Shown here: positions 18,372 through 23,426 of the stretch, one piece after another | Layout of the letters: each line of letters begins with the position of its first letter | How positions within the stretch are numbered: position 1 is the first letter of the stretch | Source: Streptomycetaceae bacterium | Lineage (GTDB): Bacteria > Actinomycetota > Actinomycetes > Nanopelagicales > Nanopelagicaceae | Length of the DNA: 36,433 nucleotides | Assembly (NCBI GenBank): GCA_900298985.1 | Contig: OMHY01000039.1 | Span: 1 to 36,433, forward strand | Direction of reading: 5' to 3' | Translations under genes and position numbers: made by a program | Notes under the pieces: model-generated | Database searches by the model: none | Seen by the model: the letters and a program-made list of their open reading frames with translations, nothing else | What the model was told of the DNA's origin: nothing

Positions 18372-20240
18372 ATGTTTTTAAAATCTGACCAAATCCATAT
18401 CTTTCTCTCTGGAAATAACACCTATTTAGTATTGCAAGCAATTTTTCATATTTTTACTTATCTGGTTGCGGCGCTTGCAATTGGGAATTTTTTATTAAGA
18501 ATATTTTTCATCTCAAATGAAGATGGAAAAATAAAATCAAGCAAGACTAGGTTGAATTATCTATTAATTGCCTGGCTAATTTCCCAAATTTGCTATTTGG
18601 TTTTTCAAATTGCATTACTTTTTCAAGTTAATTTCCTACAAAGTTTCAACCCAACTAACTTTTCGCCATTTCTTTCTCAATCTGGATTAGGTGAATCTGA
18701 GTTACTCTCGTTGATTTCAACTTTTTTTGCAATTCTATTAATTAATTTGAGCGACAAAATAATTAATAATTTCTTTGGCTTTTTATTTTCATTGTTAGCG
18801 GCCATTTCACCTACGTTTCAATCTCATTCCACATCTTTATCTAACCATGAGTTAGCTCAGGGATCTCTAGTGATCCATGTATTGAGTTTTCTACTTTGGA
18901 TCGGAGTTTTATTTGCTGGGATATCATTGAATCAATCCGAATTAGAAAAAGTTATAGGTAAAATTAGTGTAATTTCCTGGTGGGCTGCGATTTCAGTTGT
19001 GATTACTGGAGTGATAAACACAGTATTGAGATTGCCTGGCCTGAATTCGTGGAAAACACTTTATGCGCTTTTGATTATTGGGAAAATCATGATCACTATT
19101 TTTATGTTGGGATTTGGCTGGGCAGCGCGGAAAAAATTAAAGGAGAAATTAATACCAGCAAAAAGAGAGATTTTCTGGGAATTTTTACTTGCTTTAACTG
19201 TAATTACATTAGGGGGTTGGTTGAATTCTACAAATCCGCCAACTCCAACTAGATTATTTGAACCTGCTCCAGGATATTTAATAACTGGAATTAATCCACC
19301 TCCAGCTCCAAATTTGTTTCACTTATTATTTTCTTTTAATTTGGACGGTCTGTTTTTTGGTTTGTTTGTATTTGTCGGACTGTTATATTTCAAAGGAACT
19401 AGAACGCTAAAGGTTCGGGGAATAATTTGGCCAAAATATCGCATCATATGCTTTGTAGGCGGCTGGATTTTAGGAATTTATACAACTTGCGGGGGCCTTT
19501 CAATTTATGCACATTATTCTTTTGCCTACCACATGATTGCACATATGTTTTTTGGCATGGGAGTTCCCATACTTTGGAGTTTAAGTGCACCGATTACATT
19601 AGCATTAAGGACCTTGCCTGCTGGTTTAGAAAAAGATTCCTGGGGTCCAAGGCAAATTCTTAGTAAAATTCTTAATTCAAAATATGTGCAATTTATTACT
19701 AATCCAATAGTGGCACTTGGAATATTAGATGGCTCTTTATTTGCTTTATATTTCACCCCTCTTTTTGGGAATTTAATGAGTAGTCATACCGGACATTTCC
19801 TGATGAATTTACATTTCTTATTGGCCGGTATGTTATTTTTCTATCTGATTATTGGGATTGATCCAAATCCACATCCAGTTCCTTTTATTGGCAGAATTGT
19901 TTTGCTAGGAGCTGCTATGAGTATTCATTCTTTCTTTTCCATTGCAATTTTATCCTCCACTTCTTTGATGGATCATGGGTATTTTGCATCCTTAAGTAAT
20001 CCATGGCTGGGCAACTTATTAAACGATCAACATTCGGCAGGAGCAATTGGTTGGGCTTTGAGTGATTTACCAATTCTCTTTGCTTTGATTGCTACCTTTA
20101 TTCAGTGGGTGCGGGAAGATAAAAAAGAGACAATTCGAATAGAAAGAAAATCAAAATTAGCTCATGATTTGGGCCAAGATGATGATTTAGACAAATTCAA
20201 TAAATATTTGTCCAATCTTTCCAAAAAGAATTTAGATTAG
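18372..20240 (+). CDS. Fused CopD-like / CtaG cytochrome c oxidase assembly membrane protein
   Basis: 622 aa polytopic; C-terminal half YAHYSFAYHMIAHMFFGMGVPILWSLSAPITLALRTLP, SHTGHFLMNLHFLLAGMLFFYLIIGIDPNP, DQHSAGAIGW typical of CtaG. Confidence 0.88.
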   Translation: MFLKSDQIHIFLSGNNTYLVLQAIFHIFTYLVAALAIGNFLLRIFFISNEDGKIKSSKTRLNYLLIAWLISQICYLVFQIALLFQVNFLQSFNPTNFSPFLSQSGLGESELLSLISTFFAILLINLSDKIINNFFGFLFSLLAAISPTFQSHSTSLSNHELAQGSLVIHVLSFLLWIGVLFAGISLNQSELEKVIGKISVISWWAAISVVITGVINTVLRLPGLNSWKTLYALLIIGKIMITIFMLGFGWAARKKLKEKLIPAKREIFWEFLLALTVITLGGWLNSTNPPTPTRLFEPAPGYLITGINPPPAPNLFHLLFSFNLDGLFFGLFVFVGLLYFKGTRTLKVRGIIWPKYRIICFVGGWILGIYTTCGGLSIYAHYSFAYHMIAHMFFGMGVPILWSLSAPITLALRTLPAGLEKDSWGPRQILSKILNSKYVQFITNPIVALGILDGSLFALYFTPLFGNLMSSHTGHFLMNLHFLLAGMLFFYLIIGIDPNPHPVPFIGRIVLLGAAMSIHSFFSIAILSSTSLMDHGYFASLSNPWLGNLLNDQHSAGAIGWALSDLPILFALIATFIQWVREDKKETIRIERKSKLAHDLGQDDDLDKFNKYLSNLSKKNLD

Positions 20241-20851
20241 AAATAATGTAATTTTGAATTAGTTATCACTGCACTAACTTTTTGGTCATATATTCCAGTA
20301 GGAATTTTTTCTAGCGAATACTCAAAATCATAAATAATTGCCAAGGAAAAACCGGTGTAATTGGCAAGGTATCTATCATAGTAGCCACCACCTTTTCCAA
20401 GTCGATTGCCGAATTGATCAATACTTAATGCTGGCAGAATTAATAAATCAATTCCAGGTTTGTATGCAACATTGCTTTTTGGTTCTAGAAATTTATTAGG
20501 CAATAAAGTAGATGGCTCTAATTCAGTCGGGGAGCCCATGTATTCAATCCAATCAATTTGATTTTCAATTATTATTTTTGGCAGTAACAATTTTCGTCCG
20601 GTTGCCAAAACATCAAAGTGTAATTTGCTGGTGTCAGGTTCCGGAGAATTTGAAAGGTATGAACCTATACTCTTGGAACTTTGAAATTCTGGCATTTCAA
20701 TTAGCCAAGACCAGTTAAAATCTTTAGCTAGATTTGGATTTGATTCTATTTTTTGAGAGCGGGATTCTCTATAAATTTTGCGCAACTTGGATTTGGAAGT
20801 TTTTAAATCCAACCCATCAGATTGCATAGAATTCTTACCTAAATTAGGCAC
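20237..20851 (-). CDS. 5-formyltetrahydrofolate cyclo-ligase family protein
   Basis: LILPALSIDQFGNRLGKGGGYYDRYL motif; GTG start 20851 (ATG 20827 possible). Confidence 0.92.
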   Translation of the reverse strand: MPNLGKNSMQSDGLDLKTSKSKLRKIYRESRSQKIESNPNLAKDFNWSWLIEMPEFQSSKSIGSYLSNSPEPDTSKLHFDVLATGRKLLLPKIIIENQIDWIEYMGSPTELEPSTLLPNKFLEPKSNVAYKPGIDLLILPALSIDQFGNRLGKGGGYYDRYLANYTGFSLAIIYDFEYSLEKIPTGIYDQKVSAVITNSKLHYF

Positions 20852-20874: not shown

Positions 20875-21840
20875 GTGACTGATGAAAGCCAACTAAAAAG
20901 TGTGGATGAATTTTTGGCCACAGTTTTGGAATTAGCAGAGCCACTGGCGCCTTTTGAAATGCCGCTATTAGATGCACATGGAGCGGTTTTAGCCCAAGAT
21001 CTATATGTTGGCGATAGGTTAGTTTTGAAAGCTGGTTCACCTATTAGATCCGCACAAATTGGATTAGCAGCCTCATTGGGATTGAAAAGATTGCCCTGTA
21101 TTCCCCATCCACGAGTTGTAGTTATCTCAATTGGTAAAGATTTAGTGGAACCAGGAAGTGATTTTGCAAATGATTCAAAATCTTATGAAGTGAATTCTTG
21201 GATGCTAAGTACTATAGCGAGAGAAGCTGGTGCAACTACTTTTCGAGTTCACAGCGAGATATCAGATTCAGAAAAAATAAAAGATTTGATATTAGATCAA
21301 CTAGTTCGTGCAGATATTTTGGTCATTAGTGGTGATAATACTGTTAATACTCAAAGCCAGATTTCACAAACACTGCAAGAGTTAGGTGAGGTACAAAGTA
21401 TTGAATTAAAATTAACTCATGGCGGCTTATATCAGTATTTAGTGTTAGGACCTGATTCCACTGTATTGCTTCATTTGCCTAGTGAAAGCTTCCCAGCTTT
21501 TGTCGGTGGAGAAATTTTTTTAAGACCAATAATTAAAACGATGATGGGTGCTAAAAATTTACTGCGCTCCAGTGTAAAAGCTCAGCTTGCAGTTGATATA
21601 AATTCGGAAAAGGGAAAAAGAGAATTTATTCCAGTTACTTTAGAGGCGGGAGAGGATGGGAATTCTCGCCGAAAAATTATGGCAAAACCTCTTCTTAATT
21701 CAGAAACTGTGATTACAGATGTAGATAGTTATTTACTTAATTTGGCTGAAGCTCAAGGGTTACTAGTAGTGCCGGAAAATGCTGATCAATTAATATCCGG
21801 CAATATGGTGGAAGTTCTGTTATTGGACAGCAATCGTTAG
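20875..21840 (+). CDS. Degenerate MoeA-like / Glp-like (gephyrin-related) protein lacking the central MoeA domain
   Basis: N-terminal SVDEFLATVLELAEPLAPFEMPLLDAHGAVLAQDL and LKAGSPIRSAQIGLAASLGLKRLPCIPHPRVVVISIGKDLVEPG align to MoeA; the DNSAMDGYA segment is absent; C-terminal domain IV-like tail present. Confidence 0.82.
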   Translation: MTDESQLKSVDEFLATVLELAEPLAPFEMPLLDAHGAVLAQDLYVGDRLVLKAGSPIRSAQIGLAASLGLKRLPCIPHPRVVVISIGKDLVEPGSDFANDSKSYEVNSWMLSTIAREAGATTFRVHSEISDSEKIKDLILDQLVRADILVISGDNTVNTQSQISQTLQELGEVQSIELKLTHGGLYQYLVLGPDSTVLLHLPSESFPAFVGGEIFLRPIIKTMMGAKNLLRSSVKAQLAVDINSEKGKREFIPVTLEAGEDGNSRRKIMAKPLLNSETVITDVDSYLLNLAEAQGLLVVPENADQLISGNMVEVLLLDSNR

Positions 21841-21871: not shown

Positions 21872-22468
21872 TTGAAAAATTATCAAATCTTGGGTGAAAA
21901 AATTGATTTGATCCCATTGCGATACCGGGATCATAAAAACTGGGTAGAGTTAAGGAATAGAAATAAGGATTGGCTTTCCCCCTGGGAAGCTACTAGGCCG
22001 AAAATTTTGGGGGAAATTCCTAATGGGAAATTACCTAGCTCTTACTGGGAAATGATTTATCAAAATAGGCAAGATATTAAGAACTTAAGAAATTTCGCAT
22101 TTGGTATCTGGTTAAATCATCTCCATTCTGGATGTAAATCAAAAACTCCGGAACTTATCGGGCAAATAAATTTAGCTGGCTTAGTTTTTGGGGCAATGCG
22201 AGGGGCCAATATTGGATATTGGATTGATGAGAACCACAGCGGTCAGGGATATATGACTGAAGCGGTTAAAATATTGAGTAGATTCTCCTTTGAAAAATTA
22301 GGTTTAAGAAGAATAGAAATTAATTGCAGACCAGAAAATCTAGCCTCAATTCAAGTGGCTTTGAAAGCTGGTTATCAATTTGAAGGATCAAGACCAAGCT
22401 TTTTGCATATTGCAGGGGATTGGCGAGACCACAATGTTTATGTTTTATTGAACTCTCAAATACTCTAA
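21872..22468 (+). CDS. GNAT acetyltransferase, RimJ/RimL type
   Basis: NIGYWIDENHSGQGYMTEAVKILSRFSFEKLGLRRIEINCRPENLASIQVALKAGYQFEG; TTG start. Confidence 0.88.
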   Translation: MKNYQILGEKIDLIPLRYRDHKNWVELRNRNKDWLSPWEATRPKILGEIPNGKLPSSYWEMIYQNRQDIKNLRNFAFGIWLNHLHSGCKSKTPELIGQINLAGLVFGAMRGANIGYWIDENHSGQGYMTEAVKILSRFSFEKLGLRRIEINCRPENLASIQVALKAGYQFEGSRPSFLHIAGDWRDHNVYVLLNSQIL

Positions 22469-22574: not shown

Positions 22575-23426
22575 ATGGCGAGTGCTCTCATCTACATTGT
22601 AATCATTGGAATGTGGGTGGCCTATTTTGTACCTAAGTGGTTGAGCCAAAGAGATAACTTGACTGGAAAATCTGCTGATAGATTCAAAAATGCAATTAAG
22701 ATGGTAAGTGAGGATTTTTCAGTTACACCTCCAAAGCCAGACAAAACTATTAGAGAAAAACAATTGAAATCTCGAAGAATTGGATTCTCCGTAGTTCTAC
22801 TTTCCTTAATTGTGGCTACGGTATTGGCAACACTTTCTATTACTACCTCATTGGTAGAGCTAATACCTCTTTCTGGATTTCTAATATATGTGGTTGCGGT
22901 TCGCAGACAAAAAGTTGCAAACCAACTCAGACAAAGAAGACACAAGGTAATTACTCAAATTGCCCAGGCTAGAATCGTAGGCACTTCAAGCTCCACTATA
23001 TTTGATCAAAATATAGAGTTTCAATCTAAAGATAGCATTTCACAGGTATCTGAAATAGATTTTGAAAAATATGAAGAATTTAGAGTTGAAGTTAAAAATC
23101 AAAGTTTAGAAATTGAAAGTAAAGAAGAAATTACTGGAGTCACAATTGTGGCGAAAGGTAGTTCCGCTATAAATAATGCAGATTCACCAAGTTGGAATCC
23201 AATTCAAGTTCCAGCGCCTACTTATTTATCTGCACCAAAAGCATTCAAGCCAAAGAGAATTATAGATTTAACTTCAACAGGTGAGTGGAGTGCAAATCAA
23301 GAAGCTGAAGTCTATGTTGATCAATATATTGCAGAGCAATCAATCATGCCAGAAAGAGAAGATGGATTTGCGCAAGATCTTAAAAATCAGAGAGCAAATA
23401 ACCAACATAAAGCCGCTGGCGAGTAG
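22575..23426 (+). CDS. SepX/GlpR-like divisome membrane protein
   Basis: N-terminal MASALIYIVIIGMWVAYFVPKWLSQRDNLTGKSADRFKNAIKMVS resembles the actinobacterial SepX/GlpR N-terminus; second hydrophobic pair; acidic C-terminal tail; genomic link to moeA/glp-rimJ. Confidence 0.78.
   Translation: MASALIYIVIIGMWVAYFVPKWLSQRDNLTGKSADRFKNAIKMVSEDFSVTPPKPDKTIREKQLKSRRIGFSVVLLSLIVATVLATLSITTSLVELIPLSGFLIYVVAVRRQKVANQLRQRRHKVITQIAQARIVGTSSSTIFDQNIEFQSKDSISQVSEIDFEKYEEFRVEVKNQSLEIESKEEITGVTIVAKGSSAINNADSPSWNPIQVPAPTYLSAPKAFKPKRIIDLTSTGEWSANQEAEVYVDQYIAEQSIMPEREDGFAQDLKNQRANNQHKAAGE

Follow-up and report, generated by a model that had tools for sequence, protein, structure and literature searches.

The closest described relative of the gene considered here encodes Glp (MoeA2) of Corynebacterium glutamicum (Cg Glp), whose crystal structures (8BVE, 8BVF) divide the chain into domain I (residues 20-45 and 146-181), domain II (46-145), domain III (1-19 and 182-331) and domain IV (332-417) (PMC10522489). 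Two proline-rich hinges between domains I and III are the mark of Glp, and in C. glutamicum the protein is joined to Wag31/DivIVA through the membrane receptor GlpR (PMC10522489), a family known as SepX/GlpR from Streptomyces and Corynebacterium (PMC8748795, PMC10522489). The E domain of gephyrin, at animal synapses, is a second scaffold with the MoeA fold that has been recruited to a membrane receptor. It keeps its insertase activity and builds filaments through contacts of subdomain II; gephyrin from which this subdomain has been deleted neither forms filaments nor undergoes phase separation or clusters receptors (PMC12441120, 2025; see also PMC13086950). The enzyme to which both are related is the MoeA insertase (E. 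coli, 1FC5/1G8L). In two open-access publications on the evolution of Glp, Nanopelagicales go unmentioned, and domain II figures there as a structural definition only.

We analysed a stretch of 36,433 nucleotides (the window) from a metagenome-assembled genome (MAG, 89% complete) of the family Nanopelagicaceae. It contains an uninterrupted open reading frame of 321 codons that we read, with a probability of roughly three in four, as a Glp that lacks domain II, has given up molybdenum insertion and serves as a scaffold in cell division. The original prediction had already proposed a scaffold-only Glp, and the identity of the protein, the loss of domain II and of catalytic residues, and the absence of molybdenum cofactor (Moco) genes all support this idea. 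The features of the locus are listed in Table 1.

Table 1. Features of the glp-glpR locus in the window
Feature	Position	Strand	Basis
5-formyltetrahydrofolate cyclo-ligase, conserved upstream neighbour	20237..20851	-	PF01812, E 6.3e-29
glp, domain-II-less Glp, 321 aa, GTG start	20875..21840	+	ORF, Pfam, NCBIfam, phmmer, relatives
Pro-rich hinge 1, EPLAP, residues 22-26, between N-terminal domain III segment and domain I	20938..20952	+	aligned to Cg Glp hinge 1 (hinge definition of PMC10522489)
Domain I, first half, residues ~26-44	20950..21006	+	alignment to 8BVE
Excision junction, QDLYVG, residues 41-46, ~100 domain II residues gone	20995..21012	+	Pfam and alignments; position good to about 5 residues
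Domain I, second half, residues ~45-76, strongly conserved across the short clade	21007..21102	+	relatives' sequences
Pro-rich hinge 2, IPHP, residues 76-79	21100..21111	+	alignment to Cg Glp hinges
Domain III (MoCF-like), with eroded SIGKD, ISGDNTVNTQS, THGGL, HLPSES	21103..21555	+	Pfam and alignment
Domain IV (MoeA_C)	21556..21828	+	PF03454, E 7.9e-9
Domain-IV beta-hairpin, counterpart of the FtsZ-binding loop of Cg Glp, residues ~254-271	21634..21687	+	alignment
GNAT acetyltransferase, between glp and glpR	21872..22468	+	PF13302, E 5.9e-20
glpR/sepX, membrane receptor homolog	22575..23426	+	NF050099, E 6.8e-28; conserved synteny
GlpR conserved C-terminal motif WNPIQVPAPTYLSAPKAFKPKRIIDLT, limits approximate	23178..23309	+	relatives' GlpR sequences

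That the N-terminal region of this short protein is joined to a late segment, with about 100 residues gone, is agreed upon by Pfam and phmmer. The Pfam profile MoeA_N, which covers domains I and II, matches residues 9-44 only, equivalent to profile positions 2-39 of 160, and phmmer aligns the protein with Cg Glp (8BVE) as a weak N-terminal piece followed by residues 41-319 against chain residues 147-417. By these alignments the missing block corresponds, almost residue for residue, to domain II of Cg Glp, so that the window protein departs from the four-domain architecture by this domain, whereas both hinges are present. Alignment speaks for absence and against divergence, since the two halves of domain I can be aligned in each of the 37 short sequences with no insert between them. 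A domain II encoded by a separate gene is ruled out in the Moco-less relatives and in the window genome, where searches for PF03453 and PF00994 (the latter searched in this genome only) gave no match. The original prediction had spoken of an excised central MoeA domain; the excision stands, but the domain lost is domain II, and the central, molybdopterin (MPT)-binding domain III is still there. Its MoCF match is weak (16.5 bits against a Pfam cut-off of 26.6). The motifs that had been named are all found in the reading frame, namely MPLLDAHGAVLAQDLY (residues 29-44), SIGKD (85-89), ISGDNTVNTQS (151-161), THGGL (181-185) and HLPSES (200-205); however, some of the eroded motifs, such as HLPSES, are peculiar to the fast-evolving window copy and a few further members, and 32 of the 37 short relatives retain the LPG(D)P loop at the alignment level.

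The protein was first proposed to be a Glp, and this holds. Among NCBIfam models the highest-ranking is 'molybdotransferase-like divisome protein Glp' (NF045515, E 1.5e-63), with the actinobacterial MoeA model behind (7e-40), and a SepX/GlpR gene lies two genes downstream. Neither the window protein (214.9 bits) nor that of Ca. Planktophila versatilis (266.5 bits) reaches the equivalog cut-off of 475 bits, mainly because about 100 positions are missing, and Glp is still the best family for both; full-length relatives of the genus labelled g6 exceed the cut-off with 507-511 bits. An AlphaFold2 model built with 40 family sequences (pLDDT 86, pTM 0.84) has as its four best PDB fold matches the 8BVF/8BVE structures, which show Cg Glp alone and with the FtsZ tail. 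In a tree built without non-Glp MoeAs, short Glps group with the full-length Glps of the family (support 99/98). Separate MoeAs of relatives match weakly, at 22-27% identity. Sequence and predicted fold support the reading of the frame as an ortholog of Glp without the MoeA/gephyrin domain II. Cg Glp is its best sequence and fold match in the PDB, and the two have in common the genomic partner GlpR, the two hinges and an eroded active site, but Cg Glp has four domains and the FtsZ contacts M361 and Y369, whereas in the window protein the hairpin is altered and the catalytic motifs are changed further. Common ancestry with E. coli MoeA is still recognisable in domains I, III and IV, although domain II, DNSAMDGYA, T100, R137, E188, SGGVSVG and KPGKP are gone.

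As the source is a fragmented MAG, the absence of some 100 codons might be an artefact of assembly or a frameshift. This possibility is refuted by the identical deletion in closed genomes, including those of the acI bacteria Ca. Planktophila versatilis (NZ_CP016774) and IMCC19121 (CP015605), and no frameshift is seen at the window gene; we give this explanation practically no weight. The short form is, indeed, the rule in the family. Matches (at 1e-20) were found in 148 of 151 genomes of the order, which consists of one family among the genomes searched, and in 144 of these 148, belonging to 13 of the 15 genera sampled, the alignment crosses the junction without an insert. The exceptions are three genomes of g6 (G005, G019, G031) and one of the genus g14 (G013), whose proteins (L031-L034) measure 404-409 aa and have domain II. 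In a first search of relatives, the best-match open frames of 39 genomes from 30 other families were all at least 396 aa long. Two genomes carry an interrupted short glp, with an in-frame stop or split frame (G190:C1:355930-356571 and G047:C172), which may reflect either faulty assembly or a pseudogene.

When the domain II columns are left out of the tree, the 35 short sequences included in it group as a single clade (100/100), with the full-length proteins of g6 and g14 outside. One label change suffices, and multiple independent losses of domain II can be set aside. The stem of the short clade is long (0.97 changes per site), as is the window copy's own branch (1.42). L001, L035 and L049 are also long branches and call for caution in inferring a single loss; long branches might change how parts of the tree are resolved, though hardly the existence of a single short clade apart from g6 and g14. 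An intact protein at the locus, which at first sight might speak against the excision, is confined to these two outgroup genera and dates the loss of domain II instead of refuting it.

The locus itself appears to record this history. In g6 the order is 5-FTHF cyclo-ligase, galU, full-length glp, moaC, a MoCF protein of the MoaB/MogA type, GNAT and glpR, where galU and MoaB/MogA were named from reading the sequence and the MoCF protein and MoaC also by Pfam. In P. versatilis and the window the order is 5-FTHF cyclo-ligase, short glp, GNAT and glpR; none of the short members inspected has galU, moaC or the MoCF gene at this locus, and glpR adjoins glp in conserved synteny among relatives, P. versatilis included. 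The full-length Glps of g6 and g14 are the nearest relatives of the short form in the tree and share the same glpR locus (seen in g6), but have domain II and most catalytic residues, with moaC adjacent; no further MoeA was detected in the genomes that carry them. We infer that the ancestral Glp stood beside moaC with its catalytic residues intact, and that, before most Nanopelagicaceae diversified, domain II would have been lost once and moaC would have left the locus.

What became of catalysis can be followed by mapping E. coli MoeA residue numbers onto the alignment of the 37 short sequences. D59, T100 and R137 are absent from all 37 because these positions fall within the excised segment. 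E188 has been replaced by D in 35 of the sequences, and G252-G256 (SGGVSVG) and K279 are changed. Among D59, T100, R137, E188, D228, D259, K275, K279, P298 and P301, the window Glp retains P298 only, whereas the full-length Glps of g6 and g14 and most of those of other families retain these residues except K275 (S/T) and K279 (Q). The gene context agrees: the window MAG (89% complete) gave no match to PF03453, PF00994, MoaC, the MoaA C-terminal domain or MoCoBD_1, and six single-contig relatives (G001, G009, G015, G017, G027, G029) gave none to PF03453, MoaC, MoaA or MoCoBD_1. Thus neither the window genome nor these closed relatives show a full MoeA or a xanthine-dehydrogenase (XDH)-type molybdoenzyme, and the predicted loss of insertase activity is supported. 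No paper combining Nanopelagicales or Planktophila with Moco terms was found in open-access text.

A remaining metabolic role, in which domain III would go on binding a ligand such as molybdopterin or a nucleotide, might be argued from the predicted fold of this domain and from the LPG(D)P loop of most short relatives. However, the other MPT/Mo-site motifs are lost, MoaA, MoaC and a full MoeA are missing from the window genome and the six closed relatives, and the GlpR neighbour is conserved, and we regard such a role as improbable. The short Glp is also retained in six other relatives (G003, G004, G014, G025, G028, G033) that encode MoaA and MoaC together with a full-length MoeA of their own, whose similarity to Glp is weak; this argues against the short protein as a stand-in insertase. 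As judged from these gene inventories, Glp and Moco synthesis are separable in both directions.

Three further observations concern the distribution of these genes. The separate Moco sets, in which moaA, moaC and moeA lie near one another in most cases, are scattered among family members, a pattern compatible with re-acquisition. In G005, G013, G019 and G031, and also in G065, G068 and G079, XDH-type molybdoenzymes occur with MoaA and MoaC, and the sole MoeA_N protein is that of the Glp locus, with catalytic residues intact where checked; such Glps are probably bifunctional, as opposed to the published view of an enzymatically inactive Glp accompanied by a MoeA paralogue. Finally, a full-length Glp with eroded catalytic motifs (L049) occurs in a 1.4 Mb genome of the family f5 (G064), in which no MoaA, MoaC or MoCoBD_1 match and no second MoeA_N were found. 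It is apparently an independent scaffold-only Glp that has kept domain II, in a second family with reduced genomes.

Loss of Moco genes, the long branch of the window copy and its extra motif erosion could also suggest a former MoeA decaying without function under genome reduction. For the short clade this is largely refuted, and we consider it very improbable: open frames of about 300 aa persist across nearly all genomes of the family, synteny with glpR is maintained, and dN/dS in relatives is 0.02-0.05. The exact range is 0.019-0.053 for six close pairs of relatives with estimable dS, the window copy, which has no close relative among the genomes searched, standing outside the comparison, and the values are rough because dS exceeds 1 in five of the six pairs. 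Short glp is under purifying selection in the relatives.

Constraint is also distributed differently in the short clade. For a given level of domain III identity, that of domain I reaches 0.68-0.83 in the short clade as opposed to 0.36-0.55 in full-length proteins, while domain IV, the least conserved domain, is slightly less conserved. To us this suggests that constraint has shifted to the rebuilt domain I.

The partners of Glp in C. glutamicum provide the next comparison. The window MAG (89% complete) yielded neither ftsZ nor sepF, and FtsZ tails were taken from relatives; in the family they mostly read (E/D)(E/D)(I/L)D(I/V)PDF(M/L)(K/R) and closely resemble the DDLDVPDFLK seen in other families. 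The short clade does not conserve the Cg Glp residues that contact this tail, M361, Y369 and L343, and most of its members have a shorter hairpin. The window Glp has the hairpin in altered form, with E for M361 and N for Y369, both variable positions among the 37 short members. With these domain-IV contacts lost, FtsZ binding by the short Glp is inferential, and it may be different or lost. In other families the contact residues are partly conserved, M361 not even in full-length Glps, and they may thus be a corynebacterial detail.

On the receptor side, the gene downstream is a recognisable SepX/GlpR member, and GlpR homologs share the motif WxPxxVPxPTYxxAPKAxxxKRxIDLT, a conserved cytoplasmic stretch that is a candidate for the Glp-binding peptide. 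The difference from the known systems is that it occurs here in a family apparently without DivIVA/Wag31, the elongasome partner of GlpR in corynebacteria. DivIVA (PF05103) matched none of 25 family genomes, g6 and g14 included, whereas 15 of the 16 genomes searched from other families have it. In two family genomes (G015, G005; L191, L192) the order ftsZ-ylmD-ylmE-sepF-yggT is followed directly by ileS on the opposite strand, with no divIVA, whereas in G065, from another family, divIVA occupies the slot after sepF-yggT. SepF was detected in nearly all genomes searched. Judging from these gene contents, the Wag31/DivIVA link of GlpR seems to be missing in Nanopelagicaceae, while Glp, GlpR, FtsZ and SepF are kept. 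Among the matches listed for literature on DivIVA/Wag31 there was no Planktophila or Nanopelagic paper.

These observations leave room for a narrower division role, in which the short Glp is a scaffold for GlpR or another divisome protein only, possibly through the newly conserved domain I, and has lost FtsZ binding. The missing FtsZ contacts, the shortened hairpin, the higher identity of domain I against the slightly lower one of domain IV, and the long motif kept in GlpR would all fit. On the other hand, the FtsZ tail is conserved, though SepF or other FtsZ partners could account for this, and the variability of M361 in full-length Glps elsewhere weakens the argument from contact residues. 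We see this narrower role as possible but rather unlikely. A more specific proposal, which we offer tentatively and hold to be well below even odds, is a gephyrin-fold scaffold working without subdomain-II filaments, catalysis or Wag31/DivIVA, whose rebuilt domain I would offer GlpR or FtsZ a new and highly conserved surface and take over part of the role of the FtsZ site in domain IV.

Under our preferred reading of a non-enzymatic division scaffold, the short Glp would dimerise through domains I, III and IV, with the open hinge of Glp retained, and would hold the C-terminal tail of FtsZ as well as the cytoplasmic part of GlpR. The Z-ring would in this way be tied to the membrane through Glp and GlpR, presumably at the septum. 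Gephyrin, which shares domains I, III and IV, needs subdomain II for its filaments, whereas Nanopelagicaceae have a Glp without it, and the window protein thus lacks the element that defines a gephyrin-type filament scaffold. That Glp and GlpR were kept long after the deletion of domain II indicates that the function selected in this lineage requires neither the filament interface of subdomain II nor the insertase site. Either Glp never needs subdomain-II filaments, or Nanopelagicaceae have replaced them. The domain that was lost forms half of the active site of the old enzyme and is, in animal gephyrin, the builder of filaments. The questions of enzyme against scaffold, and of filament against none, can now be put to simple swap tests that draw on the proteins of complete genomes, that of Ca. 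Planktophila versatilis among them. On this reading, the scaffold-only Glp that would otherwise have to be engineered has already been made by nature, across a whole family of tiny freshwater actinobacteria.
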